A DNA stretch of 7,734 nucleotides, from contig CAOVIS010000052.1 in NCBI GenBank assembly GCA_948543905.1, positions 1 to 7,734 on the forward strand, in the 5' to 3' direction. Source of the stretch: an uncultured Bacilli bacterium (lineage in GTDB: Bacteria > Bacillota_I > Bacilli_A > RF39 > UBA660). Positions 1,885 through 7,734 of this stretch are shown here, piece after piece. Positions within the stretch are counted from its first letter, which is position 1, and every line of letters starts with the position of its first letter. The notes under the pieces were generated by a model. That model was not told the DNA's origin and searched no databases. It saw only the letters and a list, made by a program, of their open reading frames with translations. Position numbers and translations under genes: made by a program.

Positions 1885-4373
1885 ATGAAATTGAGTGAAG
1901 TAAATGTAGACGAATTAAGTCCCATGATGCAACAATATGTTGAAATAAAAAAAGATTATCCAGATGAATTATTATTTTTTCGGTTGGGTGATTTTTATGA
2001 ATTGTTTTTTGAAGATGGCATAACTGCTAGTCGCGAGCTTGAGCTTACCCTAACTGGTAAAAATGCCGGTCTAAAAGAGCGTATTCCTATGTGTGGCGTC
2101 CCATTTCATAGTGTTACCCCATATCTTGAAAAGTTAATTGAAAAAGGTTATAAAGTCGCTATCTGTGAGCAATTAGAAGATCCTAAATCTACTAAAGGAA
2201 TGGTCAGACGGGGAGTAGTGGAAGTTGTATCTAAAGGTACGATTGTTAATCTTGAATCGTTATCAGAACATGATAATAATTACTTATGCTGATATCTCAA
2301 CTGGTGAATTAAAAAGTCTTAGTTTAACGCACAATATTCAAAAAGTTATAAATGAACTTTTGCATTTAAATATTAAGGAAGTTCTTTTAGAAAAAAAGAC
2401 TGATTCTGAGTTAGAGCTAATTTTAAAGAATAATTATGGCATGGAAATATCTTATAGTGATGTCTATTTAACTGATGGTTATGACTCTTTAATTAATAGT
2501 GTTAATGATTTTGAAGTTCGAAAAGGCATTCGGCACTTATTATATTATTAAGGTTGAAATTGTAAATAAAAATGATTATTTAGAAATGGATATTCACACG
2601 ATTAGAAACCTAGAATTAGTAGAAACTTTAAGATTAAAAGAGCGTACCTATTCTATTTTATGGCTTCTTGATAAATCTAAAACAGCGATGGGTTCCAGAA
2701 AAATAAAAAATTGGCTCATGAACCCCCTTAAAAGTGAACCAGAAATAACTGCTAGATGGGATAAAATAACTAAATTAAATGAAGAATTTTTACTAAAAGA
2801 TGAACTTCGTGATTTATTATATGAAATCTATGACTTAGAACGATTATGTGCCAAAGTTATATGTGGGTCCCTAAATGCCCGTGATTTATTGCAAATAAAA
2901 AATTCTTTAGGTGTTCTACCTCGTATTAAGGAGGAGCTGAATGATTTTGGCATAAGTATTAAAGATATTGTAAGCGATTTAGGTTTTAGTTATGATATTA
3001 ATACACATTCGGTTATTTTTGATTTATTAGAAAGTAGTATATATGAAAACCCTCCTATTAGCATTAAAGAAGGATATCTTATTAAAGAGGGCTATAGTAA
3101 AGAACTTGATGAACTAAAAAGTATTAGAAGTGGCGGCAAAGAATTTATTGCAGAGTTTGAAGCTAAAATAAAAGAACAATCCGGTATTAAAAATTTAAAA
3201 GTTGGATTTAATCGCGTTTTTGGTTATTATATAGAAGTATCAAAAGGGCAAGCTACAAACGTCAGCGAGACTCTTGGCTGGGAGCGAAGGCAAACTCTTT
3301 CTAATTCGGAACGATTTATTTCTCCTGAATTAAATGAAAAGGAATCTTTAATATTAAATGCCGAAGAGAAAATAATTGATCTCGAATATAATTTGTTTTG
3401 TGATATCAAAGCTCGTATTAAAGAAGAAATACTCTCTCTTAAAAATACTGCCGATATTATCAGTGAATTAGATGCTCTTGCAAGTTTAGCAGTTGTCGCC
3501 GAAGATTACAATTTTGTCCGGCCTTCCATTAATCATGATAAAAAAATAAATATTATTGATGGTCGTCATCCTGTAATCGAGTGTGTTTCAAAAGAAGCCT
3601 ATGTTCCAAACGATATTATCATGGATGAAAATACAGATATTTTGCTTATTACTGGTCCTAATATGAGTGGTAAGTCCACTTATATGCGCGAGCTTGCGGT
3701 TATTATCATATTAGCACAAATGGGTTCTTTTGTTCCAGCAAAAAGCGCCTCTTTACCTATTATTGATAAAATATTTACGCGAATTGGTGCTAGTGACGAT
3801 TTAGTAAGTGGCCAGTCAACTTTTATGGTTGAAATGAAAGAAGCTTGTAATGCGCTTTTAAATGCTACTTCTAATAGCTTAATTTTGTTTGACGAGCTAG
3901 GACGAGGAACAGCGACTTTTGATGGTATGAGTCTTGCTCAGGCGATACTAGAATATGTTGCTAAAAATATTAAGTGTAAAACTCTGTTTTCAACACATTA
4001 TCATGAATTAACTAGTCTTGATAAGGAATTTTCTAATATTTGCAATGTACATGTCGCTGCTCATGAAGAAAAAAACATGATAACTTTCTTACATAAAGTA
4101 AAAAGTGGGCCTGCGGATAAAAGTTATGGTATTCATGTTGCCCGTCTTGCTAATATGCCTGAAGATTTACTCACTAGAGCTGAAATCATTTTACAAAGTT
4201 ATGAAAAAAATTCCAAGCCAACATCTATTGCTGATAGTAATATCCAATTAGCCATGAATTTTGATAAATCTGAACCTGATAAATTACGCGAAAAACTTGA
4301 TGCTCTAGATATTCTTCATATGACTCCTATTGAAGCAATAAACGCTTTATATGAACTAAAAGAAACCAAATAA
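1885..4373 (+). pseudogene. mutS: DNA mismatch repair protein MutS, split over three frames
   Basis: MutS is the cytosolic ATPase that binds mispaired or looped bases and starts mismatch repair. Piece 1 (1885-2289) is the mismatch-binding domain, with the Phe-x-Glu motif at residues 37-39 (GDFYEL) plus PMCGVPFHS and KVAICEQ. Piece 2 (about 2285-2548) is the connector domain, starting YADISTGEL. Piece 3 (about 2550-4373) holds the core/lever and clamp, then the ATPase. The ATPase has Walker A GPNMSGKST (3654-3680), SGQSTFMVEM, Walker B LILFDELGRGT (Asp-Glu at 3891-3896) and STHYHEL. It ends with the usual C-terminal TPIEAINALYEL; QLAMNF before this may be a divergent beta-clamp motif. Compared with B. 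subtilis MutS, about 13-14 residues are missing at 2281-2288 and about 13 at 2546-2551. Each loss moves the frame by +1, so translation would stop at 2290 after 135 codons. All catalytic motifs survive and the pieces contain no other stops, so the lesions are either recent or artefactual. Confidence 0.93.
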
Positions 4374-4377
4374 AAGC

Positions 4378-4406
4378 TTGATTTTTCTAAAACAATTGTT
4401 TATAAT
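4378..4406 (+). promoter_or_regulatory. Promoter of the four-paralog operon
   Basis: TTGATT (4378-4383) and a perfect TATAAT (4401-4406) are separated by an optimal 17 bases. The element begins four bases after the mutS stop codon. Transcription would begin near 4412, leaving a leader of about 28 bases. The spacer holds a perfect 12-base palindrome, AAACAATTGTTT (4390-4401), which could be an operator or a chance AT-rich sequence. Its position suggests that the operon is expressed independently of mutS. Confidence 0.65.
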
Positions 4407-4439: not shown

Positions 4440-5171
4440 ATGAATAATTATTTAGAATTAATAAAGAAATTACAAGCAAAACTTGAGAAAACTAGAGAGA
4501 AAATTAATGAAGCTACAGATCTTGAAAGTAAAAGTACTGAGGAACTTACCGAAAAAAAGTTTGAACTAGAAGAAGAAAAGAGAAAATATAATACTCTTTT
4601 AGAAAAACTAGATAAATTAAAAAATTATGATATTCTAATAGCAAACATCAAAAAAAAACATCGCAAAATATATTTTAAAGAATACTTTAAATATGTTATT
4701 TATATTTTTTTAATCTTACTATTTTTTTTGTTACCTTTAGTAGTGGTTAATTTCGAGGGCTTAAAAATTTTAGCCATTGCTAATATATGTTTTAACTTAT
4801 TTTGGAGTTTGATAACTTACATAGCTTTAAGACCATCGTTTAATAGGGAAATAAAACCTTTATTTGATTTAAAAAACACTTACGCCATGGATAGTTTAGA
4901 AAAAGAAATTTCTTTAAAAAAAGCAAATATTGCTACCTTAAAAAAAGATATAAAAGATTTAAAAAGCATTATTAAAAAAAGCCAAGATGATAATAAAAAA
5001 TTAAATAACTGTTTGTGTGATTTAGAAGAAAAAGTACGACAAATTGAAGCTAAGATTACTAGCATTCTAGAGACTCCTCAAGTTGAAGAAATTTCTAATG
5101 CTAAGTTTTTTGTTGAAGAAACACTTGCAAGAACCTTAATTCCAAAAATAAAAGGAGGACATCATGAATAA
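4440..5171 (+). CDS. Membrane-hairpin coiled-coil protein, paralog 1 of 4 (unknown function)
   Basis: I do not recognise this 243-residue protein. Residues 5-62 are Lys/Glu-rich and heptad-like (coiled coil). A basic stretch KKKHRKIYFK (71-80) leads into two hydrophobic segments at about 85-104 and 108-130, joined by only a few polar residues (NFEG). Residues 150-210 form a second coiled coil, followed by ILETPQVEEISNAKF (209-223) and a basic tail ending GGHHE. The basic flanks suggest both ends are cytoplasmic with a short outer loop. There is no signal peptide, nucleotide-binding motif or obvious catalytic motif. The start at 4440 has only a weak ribosome site (AGAAAGAAG, 4422-4430), but its first residues MNNYLELI match those of paralogs 2 and 3. 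It is the first gene of the operon. Its last eight bases overlap the start of paralog 2, and its final codons contain that gene's strong Shine-Dalgarno (AAAGGAGG). Confidence 0.88.
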   Translation: MNNYLELIKKLQAKLEKTREKINEATDLESKSTEELTEKKFELEEEKRKYNTLLEKLDKLKNYDILIANIKKKHRKIYFKEYFKYVIYIFLILLFFLLPLVVVNFEGLKILAIANICFNLFWSLITYIALRPSFNREIKPLFDLKNTYAMDSLEKEISLKKANIATLKKDIKDLKSIIKKSQDDNKKLNNCLCDLEEKVRQIEAKITSILETPQVEEISNAKFFVEETLARTLIPKIKGGHHE

Positions 5172-5889
5172 ATATCTAACATTAATAAAAGAATTAAGCA
5201 TTTTAATCAATAATCTAAATACTAAATTAAAAGATAATTATGAAAATGAAGTAGCTGCCTCTATTTCTCTTACTAGTGATAAAAAGATGGTAAATGAATA
5301 TGAAAGTGATTTAATTGAATTAAAGAATATTAAAAGAGAACTTAAAAGATATCCTACTTTAATAGGAAAAATCCGAAAAAAATACTTTTTCAGATTTTTA
5401 AAATGGACGGTAGGATGCAGTATTCTTACTATAGGAGGAATTCAACTTTTTTGCATGTTTTTAAATGAATTTATTTCGGATATAGTAGTATTTAAAGTAC
5501 TTTCATCTGGTATTTATACCTTTCTTTTTTCTATAGTTTATGGCCTTAGAGATATTATCGCTTATTTAGAAGAGAGCATTCCCTTAAAATCTTTAAAAAA
5601 ACATTATACTTTAGAAGCTCTAGATATTTTAATCGATACCAAAGATCAAGAAATAGCTAAGTTAAAGGCTGAAATAGTAAAACTAAGTGCGAATGTTAAA
5701 ATTTATTTAACTGAAAAAGAAGTTTTAGTAGCTCAAAAAAATGAATTAGAAAAAAAGGTAGCTATTGCCCAAAATAAATATAATTCTGTTTTAGCTTTAC
5801 CTGAGGTTGAAGCTATAATTGATGATAAGTTTTGTGCAGATTTGAGTTTAAATCGTCTTTTAAACAGAAGGGAAACGCCTCATGAATAA
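5164..5889 (+). CDS. Membrane-hairpin coiled-coil protein, paralog 2 of 4 (unknown function)
   Basis: This 241-residue protein has the same plan as paralog 1. The N-terminus is MNKYLTLIKEL, and residues 10-62 are helical. A basic patch (KIRKKYFFRFLK, 69-80) precedes hydrophobic segments at about 81-101 and 108-128. A Lys/Glu-rich coiled coil occupies about 150-207. The motif SVLALPEVEAIIDDKF (208-223) aligns without gaps to the same residue numbers in paralog 1, and a basic tail follows (LNRLLNRRETPHE). The start is well supported: AAAGGAGG lies at its usual distance and the ATG lies inside the end of paralog 1 (ATGAATAA shared, 8 bases), so translation is probably coupled. The gene ends with the same CATGAATAA junction onto paralog 3. 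Sequence identity to the others is low outside the ends, so the duplication is old or fast-diverging. Function is unknown. Confidence 0.88.
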   Translation: MNKYLTLIKELSILINNLNTKLKDNYENEVAASISLTSDKKMVNEYESDLIELKNIKRELKRYPTLIGKIRKKYFFRFLKWTVGCSILTIGGIQLFCMFLNEFISDIVVFKVLSSGIYTFLFSIVYGLRDIIAYLEESIPLKSLKKHYTLEALDILIDTKDQEIAKLKAEIVKLSANVKIYLTEKEVLVAQKNELEKKVAIAQNKYNSVLALPEVEAIIDDKFCADLSLNRLLNRRETPHE

Positions 5890-6568
5890 CTATCAAAAAT
5901 TTCTATTAAACTTTAACAAGAGACTCATAAAAACTGCCAAAAAATTAGATATCAATAAGAACAGGCAAGAAGCTATAAGAGATGTTCTTAAAAATAATAA
6001 TGCTAGATTAGCAATTTTAGAAAAAGAAAAAAGCAAATATGAGGCTATACTTTCTGAGATAGAAGAACGTGAGAAGCGTTTAAAAGAAGATTGTAGAAAA
6101 CTTCCATACTATTTTCTTCTAACATTTATAGTATATTTAACAGTTCCTCCAATAGACCATTATTTATTAGGAAATCCTGTAAATATTATTGGTGATATTA
6201 TTGTAGTTTCAATTTTCAACATCTTATTTGATAGTGTATTCATATATTCCTATATTAAAGATACTAATAAACTACGAGATTTTAAAGAAGATAATCATAC
6301 TGATGAAATAGAGGATAAACTAGCTAGAATTTTATTAGAAAAATTCGACCTTGAGAAGAAAAATGATAAAGCCCTAGAAATGCTATCTATTCTTCAAGAT
6401 TACGAATCTAGACTTAAAAAACTTTATGCTAGACTAAAAAGTCGCAAACATGAAGTTCAGGTAGCTTACACTGAAGTCTTAACCACACCATCTATTAAAA
6501 ACGAAATAAATAGCGAATTTACCAAAACATCTATCACGCGAGTTAGAAAGAGAGATACTAATGGATAA
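5882..6568 (+). CDS. Membrane-hairpin coiled-coil protein, paralog 3 of 4 (unknown function)
   Basis: At 228 residues this is the shortest of the four. MNNYQKFL begins a long charged helix (about 10-70) rich in Lys/Glu/Arg. Hydrophobic segments lie at about 76-95 and 102-125. The outer loop region (PPIDHYLLGNP) is more polar and prolines break the first segment. The second coiled coil (about 140-197) is followed by EVLTTPSIKNEINSEF (198-213), which matches the motif of paralogs 1 and 2 at the same spacing but ten residues earlier. The end is basic (SITRVRKRDTNG). The ribosome site AGAAGGG (5866-5872) lies nine bases before the ATG, inside paralog 2. Both ends overlap their neighbours by eight bases. 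There is no Trp and no recognisable enzyme motif. Confidence 0.87.
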   Translation: MNNYQKFLLNFNKRLIKTAKKLDINKNRQEAIRDVLKNNNARLAILEKEKSKYEAILSEIEEREKRLKEDCRKLPYYFLLTFIVYLTVPPIDHYLLGNPVNIIGDIIVVSIFNILFDSVFIYSYIKDTNKLRDFKEDNHTDEIEDKLARILLEKFDLEKKNDKALEMLSILQDYESRLKKLYARLKSRKHEVQVAYTEVLTTPSIKNEINSEFTKTSITRVRKRDTNG

Positions 6569-7289
6569 TAAAACTCAAGAAGAATTAATAGAAAGTCTTA
6601 TTTTAACCAGAAAAGATTTAGTATTAATAAATCATAACCAAGAAGAAAATGCTCATGATATTACTATAACAGAAGAAGAAATAACTATGCTTGAAAAGGA
6701 TTTAGAAAGACTAGGATTTATCAAAAATATCCTTTTAAATTATAAGACCAAAATTAAAAGTGCTAAACAAAAATCCCTTTTAAGTGGCTCTATTTTAAGT
6801 ACAGTTATTTTTCTAATAGTCTTATTTTACATTTTATCTTTTTATGATTTTGATAAAATCTATATTTTAGCCGAAAAAGAAGCGGTTTTGCTTTATAGTC
6901 TATCAGATGCCATTATTTCTACTTTTTTTAGTGCCATTTTCGAGATTAACAAGTATTTGCGTTATACTTCTGAGGACCATTTTGTTAAAAATAATTTTAG
7001 TTTAGAAGGGGTAGAAGCGGAAATAAAAACTAAAAGTCTAGCTCATGATGAAGCTCTAAAAAAATTAGCTGTTATGTATACTACTAAAGAACAATTAGCT
7101 AAAAAAAGCTCTGAAATAGAGAGTTTAATAAAAACTCTTGAAAATCAAATAGCCTTTAATTATGAAGCTGCTCGTAAGGAAATTTCATCTTCTTCTTTAG
7201 TCGCCAATTTATTATCTGAAACATTTAATCAATCTAGTGAAGGGATCACATTAAAAAGAATCAATAAAGAAACTTCTAAAGAATACTAA
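6561..7289 (+). CDS. Membrane-hairpin coiled-coil protein, paralog 4 of 4 (unknown function)
   Basis: This 242-residue protein is the most divergent of the set. The N-terminus is acidic (MDNKTQEELIESL) rather than MNxY. A helical region runs to about residue 65, then a basic stretch KTKIKSAKQK (62-71). Two hydrophobic segments follow at about 74-95 and 105-126, joined by a loop with acidic and aromatic residues. The rear coiled coil covers about 148-200. Where the first three have L-x-x-P, this one reads EISSSSLVANLLSETF (207-222). It keeps only the E-I opening, the Val at position 8 and the final Phe, and lacks the Leu and Pro. The tail is again basic (ITLKRINKETSK). The start overlaps paralog 3 by eight bases (ATGGATAA), with a weak AAAGAGAG upstream. 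It is the last gene of the operon; a hairpin terminator follows 50 bases later. Confidence 0.85.
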   Translation: MDNKTQEELIESLILTRKDLVLINHNQEENAHDITITEEEITMLEKDLERLGFIKNILLNYKTKIKSAKQKSLLSGSILSTVIFLIVLFYILSFYDFDKIYILAEKEAVLLYSLSDAIISTFFSAIFEINKYLRYTSEDHFVKNNFSLEGVEAEIKTKSLAHDEALKKLAVMYTTKEQLAKKSSEIESLIKTLENQIAFNYEAARKEISSSSLVANLLSETFNQSSEGITLKRINKETSKEY

Positions 7290-7339: not shown

Positions 7340-7373
7340 ATGATTAGAAGCATACTCTAGTCATTTTTATTTT
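7340..7373 (+). terminator. Rho-independent terminator of the paralog operon
   Basis: A nine-base stem pairs ATGATTAGA (7340-7348) with TCTAGTCAT (7356-7364), with one G-U pair and a seven-base loop, followed by TTTTATTTT. An A-run just upstream (7331-7336) gives a T-run on the opposite strand, so the hairpin could also work in reverse. It separates the paralog operon from the toxin-like gene downstream. Confidence 0.72.
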
Positions 7374-7430: not shown

Positions 7431-7734
7431 ATGCCAAGTAGATTATAAATATTGTAATTATTTAAGAAATTATGATGATAAAGTTCCATACAATTCAGGA
7501 GATAAAAGAAATAGACCATTTGTTGGCGTCTTATTTTATGTTGATAAAATTGAATATTTTACACCATTATCAAGCCCTAAACTGAAGCATCAAAAAATGA
7601 AAAACACTCTTGATTTTATTAAAATAGATGGTGGGAAATTAAAAGCAATTAACTTTAATAATATGATTCAAGTTACTAAAGAAAACTATCGAAAATTAGA
7701 AATATCCAAACAAGATAAAGGTTCAAGCCAAAGG
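7431..7734 (+). pseudogene. ToxN/AbiQ-family endoribonuclease toxin, 5' part, frame lost after the start codon, cut by window edge
   Basis: ToxN/AbiQ proteins are endoribonucleases of type III toxin-antitoxin systems. They are normally held inactive by a repeat RNA and can abort phage infection. From 7432 one frame stays open for 101 codons to the edge. It carries family landmarks: YLRNYDDKVP, RPFVGVLF, a PLSSPK stretch matching PLTSPK of P. atrosepticum ToxN (where I recall the catalytic Ser/Lys lie), then KMKNTLDF and INFNNMI as in lactococcal AbiQ. The only start with a good ribosome site (AGGGGA, ATG at 7431) is in a different frame and gives five codons before TAA. By comparison with ToxN (MKFYTI...), about eight bases encoding most of KFY appear to be missing directly after ATG; the lone C before CAA GTA GAT may be what is left of a Tyr codon. 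No ATG, GTG or TTG start in the toxin frame lies near the front. The 3' end is outside the window. Family assignment is from remembered motifs. Confidence 0.8.

Follow-up and report, generated by a model that had tools for sequence, protein, structure and literature searches.

A 7,734-nucleotide (nt) stretch of DNA from an uncultured Bacilli bacterium (contig CAOVIS010000052.1 of assembly GCA_948543905.1; hereafter the window) carries a tandem array of four genes, P1 to P4. These are true paralogs of one family, a conclusion that is well supported, and the family is so far seen only in relatives of the source bacterium. We propose that the four products are membrane-anchored antiparallel coiled-coil rods, derived by tandem expansion of a lineage-restricted and fast-changing family, which would act at the inner membrane face as a scaffold or tether under weak constraint; this reading is tentative, and we put its probability at roughly 0.4. 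Four orphan genes can be assigned to a family that can be defined and whose address recurs, and they offer a case in which extreme divergence at a fixed locus, or repeated replacement there, can account for apparent orphans. Proteins without relatives in a search of 5.8 billion sequences were placed by synteny together with held-out profile tests. The family is an entry point for asking what these bacteria, which we label RF39-like, build on their inner membrane.

Paralogy and architecture of the array

Pairwise local scores were compared with those of 300 regional shuffles. They joined P1, P2, and P3 (P1-P2, z = 9.6; P1-P3, z = 6.0; P2-P3, z = 2.9, reached by 5/300 shuffles), and P4 was joined more weakly, best with P2 (z = 3.7, 1/300), followed by P3 (z = 2.7, 4/300) and P1 (z = 2.2, 9/300). 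P1 and P2 were mutual best partners, P3 paired best with P1 and P4 with P2, and identity among the four ranged from 24 to 32%. A family profile from which all window proteins were held out scored P1 at 61 bits (z = 7.6), P2 at 38 (z = 5.7), P3 at 42 (z = 5.8), and P4 at 29 (z = 5.4). None of 200 regional shuffles reached any of these scores, and each protein outscored its own reversed sequence; against the best of 35 reversed sequences the result for P4 was narrow (26.1 vs. 20.9). Both tests agree with a first-pass annotation of this DNA, which had described four diverged paralogs.

Relatives were traced in uncultured Bacilli by mutS synteny, with the last 281 residues of MutS as query (nearest match 82%, locus L001). 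A four-row profile led to one gene each in G236 and G001 (the genome to which L001 belongs); a composition scan gave tandem copies in L013, and iteration over locus open reading frames (ORFs) yielded 17 rows, one of them a duplicate. The later profile A4 holds 28 rows, including 13 ORFs from 19 stretches (16 genomes), and leaves out L125, L128, L131, L132, L133, L135, L136, L139, L140, L124_b, and L130_1, some of which are plausible members. In a leave-one-out test 33/35 members beat 200/200 shuffles and L060 beat 199/200. Membership of L006 is uncertain, as it failed at first (103/200 shuffles) and gave a weak pass once the training set had grown (z = 3.0). L016_xBproS, L007_xBproS, L123_xBproS, L006, L060, L126_1, and L124_b did not exceed the best of 35 reversed sequences, and the scores of members found by profile search are optimistic in shuffle and reversed tests alike. 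One candidate, G002_far, was rejected (held-out z = 1.1, 32/200 shuffles).

The family tree is saturated (median end branch 1.7; 6/32 inner branches well supported) and for that reason shows a group of copies located between xseB and proS, the pair P1 and P2, and little else. Support for P1 and P2 is 93/83, outside the well-supported branches. The xseB-proS copies of L016 and G115 group with that of L007 (100/98). No one-to-one pairing of P1 to P4 with the copies of the three-gene array in G009 was found.

The coil-hairpin-coil architecture is likewise well supported. Each array protein has a single hydrophobic block with room for two helices, flanked by an N-arm and a longer C-arm, within the family layout of coil, block of two transmembrane segments (2TM), and coil over about 190 to 250 amino acids (aa). 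In 40 members (counted without the interrupted L001 and without L006, L131, and L132) the arms carry the 3.5-residue period of coiled coils, with a mean power of 3.57 vs. 1.0 for random order. The two coiled coils and membrane hairpin first read from the sequence are thereby borne out. A basic patch had also been noted before the hairpin; it is present in P1, P2, and P4 (net charge +5, +8, and +6) and missing from P3 (0). Net charge at this position is positive in most of the 40 members, not in all, and this leaves mixed support for the topology we infer, with both ends inside the cell. AlphaFold2 predicted for P1 (mean predicted local distance difference test score 84.1, predicted template modelling score 0.59) helices at residues 3-61, 63-103, 107-147, 150-210, and 213-233, and in this model the arms form an antiparallel coiled-coil rod that VIA-align matched to rods of two antiparallel helices, such as the dynein stalk 5ayh (124 residues at 1.6 Å). 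A C-terminal tail motif occurs in 16/43 tails vs. 2.5% of shuffled tails, and in 120/1403 other ORFs; its pattern was chosen post hoc and we place no reliance on it.

The four reading frames are all open, lie on one strand and overlap by 8 nt at each of the three junctions, so that the gene lengths and tight coupling given in the first-pass annotation stand (Table 1). P1 starts 66 nt after the end of mutS. Because it nevertheless begins with the same eight letters as the array overlaps, the simplest reading would be that the array was assembled from copies formerly sited behind the stop codon of another gene.

Operon address, copy number and divergence of relatives

In the relatives the operon runs mutS - nusB - xseA - xseB - proS - spoIVB-type peptidase (the first five named by eye, the peptidase by PF05580). 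Members lie largely within it, most often between xseA and xseB, singly or in arrays of two or three. Among loci L001 to L080, xseA and xseB are visible on one strand in 36; the interval between them exceeds 600 nt in 9/36 and measures -13 to 93 nt in the other 27. A member is present in eight of the nine long intervals, the L001 one being interrupted and the L060 one the weakest; the ninth, in L004, holds a remnant and an 88-aa ORF. Seven stretches surround later hits of the profile, which carries no position information: four (G003, G009, G015, and G018) have members exactly between xseA and xseB, and three have them elsewhere. The 8-nt overlap of the window recurs at 7/14 xseA-member junctions read (L001, L008, L014, L016, L123, L182, and L183); at the remaining seven (L179, L031, L060, L013, L180, L005, and L006) the genes either overlap, by 1, 11, 11, or 23 nt, or stand 8, 19, or about 120 nt apart.

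Further addresses are xseB-proS (L007, L016, and L123), after proS (G236), before mutS (L068, and G198 with one intervening gene), and after mutS, as in the window, which ends before reaching any nusB or xseA. L016 and G115 have two paralogs each inside the operon; the xseA-xseB interval of G009 holds three full copies, and L013 has two and a fragment. Four copies stand in tandem away from the operon in G226, and off-operon members also occur in G002 (weak), G003, G012, G098, G378, G188, and others. Single, scattered homologs had been named beforehand as a finding that would speak against the first-pass annotation; copies are indeed often single and some lie elsewhere, but many share one operon address.

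Several observations concern the surroundings of members. A second small gene of 83 to 88 aa, without Pfam match, lies between the family slot and xseB (L008, 11479-11730; L004, 12515-12781), and a protein of about 244 to 256 aa is encoded between nusB and xseA in L013 (3590-4324; no Pfam match for the L013 protein) and relatives. A second, similar-looking member neighbourhood with equal neighbour-gene lengths is seen in G002, G012, and G003 (L185 at 5642, L184 at 5779, L181 at 4781), and in L185 the neighbours include a DUF3006 gene and a metallo-beta-lactamase-fold gene. The 149-aa ORF in the 611-nt xseB-proS gap of L048 is not a member by profile.

Of the 18 nearest genomes, 12 have full-length copies, that of G006 being unsure; counting the weak G002 match makes 13. 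Intact copies there range from none detected to three, and several genomes have a single copy. The sole copy detected in the nearest relative, G001, is the one in L001, broken by two in-frame stops. G004 holds a remnant, L013 and L004 hold fragments, and among these 18 no match was found in G010 or G017 and only a partial one with stops in G011. Over 386 genomes of the taxonomic family, 72 gave a match at an expectation value (E) ≤ 0.001, many of them partial coiled-coil matches, and a scan of 395 genomes of the class, at E ≤ 1e-6, gave full-length copies only in genomes already known from that search. At most seven candidates were scored per genome in genome-wide scans, these two sets included, so absence in them is soft.

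These counts bear on the earlier proposal that each paralog fills a fixed position in an obligate four-subunit hetero-oligomeric membrane complex. Four diverged copies joined by identical-length overlaps would suit such a complex, as would the two operon paralogs kept in each of L016 and G115 and the grouping of their xseB-proS copies with that of L007. A copy number of zero to four, common singles and array positions without one-to-one orthology speak against it; for these reasons an obligate four-slot complex is not supported, and it is the least likely of the explanations considered, a very improbable one.

Divergence of the family is high. Eleven cross-genome member pairs, nine from the same interval, are 26 to 37% identical over aligned residues, and two further same-interval pairs are 40% and 28% identical. 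In the same genomes, where measured, mutS, nusB, xseA, and xseB are 78 to 97% identical, proS 80 to 84%, and spoIVB 68 to 81%; one proS pair at 24% comes from genomes with different proS types. For some member pairs, replacement by a paralog at the same place is possible. Nei-Gojobori estimates of nonsynonymous (dN) and synonymous (dS) divergence for the L014/G015 member were 0.489 and 0.883 (ratio 0.55), vs. 0.050/0.660 = 0.08 for xseA and 0.08 for xseB, so that in this one measured pair member dN is about tenfold that of xseA. Two closer member pairs (79% and 82% identical) gave dN/dS values of 0.16 and 0.39, beside 0.03 for dinB and 0.06 for PBP; the values of 0.62 to 1.02 in more diverged pairs are saturated and unreadable. 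From these ratios and the dN comparison, members are constrained yet change faster than the adjoining housekeeping genes. Identity is evenly low across arms and hairpin, and the first 15 residues are best kept (65% vs. 40-45% elsewhere, ten pairs pooled).

Weakly constrained accessory passengers, duplicating and decaying in the operon with little function beyond membrane insertion, might leave a similar record: zero to four copies, the broken copy of G001, fragments in both L013 and L004, and a hairpin no better kept than the arms. Set against this are ratios well below 1 in the two closest pairs, full-length frames in two thirds of the nearest genomes, the recurrent position and the better-kept first residues. 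We regard this explanation as a serious rival, although an unlikely one.

Candidate roles of the array

RF39 is presented as a gut lineage of Bacilli in PMC7301438. Under the scaffold reading that we prefer, P1 to P4 would be a local tandem expansion of a family found most often in the xseA-xseB-proS part of the operon in RF39-like Bacilli. Each chain would insert in the membrane as a short two-helix hairpin, and the N- and C-arms, probably both cytoplasmic, would pair on the inner face to form an antiparallel coiled-coil rod. Copies translated together could associate through arms and hairpins into homo-oligomers or, possibly, hetero-oligomers of co-encoded copies, and the oligomers would act as a scaffold or tether on the cytoplasmic face. 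Such a role would require the shape and the heptads, would fix few residues exactly, and would tolerate zero to four copies.

Several points weigh against this scaffold reading. The rod comes from one predicted model, that of P1, and its VIA-align matches are at a level that the tool rates as common for long helices. Raised dN/dS fits conflict or relaxed selection equally well as scaffolding, and two small neighbours of one member have ratios of 0.16 and 0.24, no lower than the member itself. Of the 18 nearest genomes, three have neither a full-length copy nor a remnant, and three others have, respectively, an interrupted copy, a remnant, and only a weak match, so either the function is dispensable or copies are too diverged to detect.

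The proteins may instead serve in host-parasite conflict, as membrane-hairpin effectors or exclusion factors that are carried as variable operon cargo and driven to change by phages or mobile elements. Fast divergence, presence and absence, tandem expansion, and decay would all be consistent with this, and so would the company of some members: a ToxN gene follows the window array and another lies in the same operon of G001 (Pfam), ToxN-like genes occur near a member in G292 (BLAST label only), and a member in G003 has a DUF1016/YhcG nuclease gene two genes away. P1, alone of the four, matches SLATT weakly, and PADLOC gave weak matches to LeoBC (E = 1.1e-6, 2/28 members) and LmuB (E = 5.6e-6, 7/28). 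The PADLOC matches differ between members, however, and fall mainly in the coiled-coil arm where positions are shown; the operon has no recognised sensor or signalling partner, and none of the three least diverged pairs has an overall dN/dS as high as 1. We consider conflict a serious rival that is somewhat unlikely. Quite doubtful is the broader idea of a new membrane coiled-coil system that duplicates and diversifies in the mutS-xseAB-proS operon, its rods being targets or weapons of conflict or membrane tethers to the DNA-processing proteins that the operon encodes.

Flanking features and known systems

Table 1. Positions in the window of the array genes, their hairpins and overlaps, and flanking features.
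Feature	Position	Strand	Remark
P1	4440..5171	+	243 aa, coil - 2TM hairpin - coil
P2	5164..5889	+	241 aa, nearest paralog P1
P3	5882..6568	+	228 aa, paralog
P4	6561..7289	+	242 aa, paralog with greatest divergence
P1 hydrophobic hairpin	4668..4829	+	aa 77-130
P2 hydrophobic hairpin	5404..5568	+	aa 81-135
P3 hydrophobic hairpin	6113..6259	+	aa 78-126
P4 hydrophobic hairpin	6768..6941	+	aa 70-127
P1/P2 stop/start overlap, 8 nt, ATGAATAA	5164..5171	+	
P2/P3 stop/start overlap, 8 nt, ATGAATAA	5882..5889	+	
P3/P4 stop/start overlap, 8 nt, ATGGATAA	6561..6568	+	
Promoter-like site TTGATT-17-TATAAT	4378..4406	+	consensus match only
Terminator-like hairpin, U-rich sequence after	7340..7364	+	folding vs. 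shuffles
mutS, anchor gene of syntenic operon	1885..4373	+	reading frame split in window

Gene order in the window is pfl (minus strand), mutS, P1 to P4, and a partial ToxN gene. Errors of sequencing or assembly in the contig are suggested by mutS, split over three overlapping frames, and pfl (3-1416), split over two. The array had been credited with its own promoter and terminator. The promoter-like site matches the consensus at 10/12 positions, but such sites are no commoner in the region than in shuffles (21 vs. 19.7 expected). A strict terminator scan found none; the 9-base-pair hairpin with its U-rich tail (z = -2.1; equal stability in 5/200 shuffles) is a plausible terminator.

The partial gene at 7441-7734, which runs off the window, encodes a ToxN-type toxin of a type III toxin-antitoxin system (PF13958, E = 2.3e-29). 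An ATG at 7431 is out of frame with it, and only two short, weak repeats lie upstream. The ToxN gene of L001 is located between mutS and nusB, downstream of direct repeats with 36-41 nt spacing (8908-9056), as expected of a ToxI-like RNA antitoxin. Within L001 to L080 and L123 the mutS-nusB interval also carries a GNAT acetyltransferase and tyrS (L014) and a phosphodiesterase (G115), and it looks like a variable site because the cargo differs among genomes.

The four proteins had been assigned to no recognised family, and this holds: no Pfam or NCBIfam model reached its cut-off for P1 to P4, and none recurred through 28 members. Among the 25 commonest Pfam families for these members, DUF2207_C was most frequent (5/28, best E = 0.0012); the lowest E listed, 9.2e-6, belonged to Baculo_PEP_C, which matched two members. 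Rfam gave nothing at gathering score and PHROGs weak matches only (best E = 1.3e-4, tape measure protein). Searched against 5.8 billion proteins, P1 returned itself only; a four-row profile returned P1, P3, and P4 (P2 was not listed), and a 16-row profile P1, P4, and one relative, P0004, which is 99% identical to the L005 member. P1 is recorded on 2 contigs and P4 on 3 (longest 126,019 bases). Scans of genome contigs, viral contigs, and plasmids with P1 found no relative. Searches of open-licence PubMed Central (PMC) papers, judged by title and abstract opening, turned up no description of such a family. A match of profile A3 to 8qox (E = 2.9e-8) was rejected as coiled coil; papers that list 8QOX concern S-layers. 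We attribute the weak matches to SLATT, TIGR04527, LmuB, LeoBC, PbeC, and others to coiled-coil resemblance and discount them, since each model occurs in at most 7/28 members (25 commonest families listed).

Three known systems invite comparison. SLATT proteins are described in PMC7159879 as predicted 2TM effectors that would form pores on a nucleotide signal. They resemble the array proteins as small two-TM proteins, and P1 matches them below cut-off (PF18160, 15.7/29.5 bits; NF033631, 19.4/60 bits); P2 to P4 have no SLATT match up to E = 1. The alignments (P1 3-100 to model 78-178 of 180; 8-103 to 85-190 of 192) pair the N-arm and first transmembrane segment of P1 with the last part of the models, and no recognised SMODS, SLOG or other signalling partner lies near P1 to P4. 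The Mycoplasma two-TM family of NCBIfam, TIGR04527 (mycoplas_twoTM, MG_279/MG_280), weakly matches 5/28 members, P1 at 15.8 bits. Its best score in 25 genomes is 22.5 bits against a cut-off of 125, with 0/25 genomes passing, and the match is unspecific because the model also weakly matches in 11/14 control genomes. The dynein stalk (5ayh) and the SMC arm (5nnv) resemble the two-helix antiparallel rod predicted for P1, with no demonstrated sequence relationship; both are soluble parts of ATPases, whereas the rod predicted for P1 carries a membrane hairpin.

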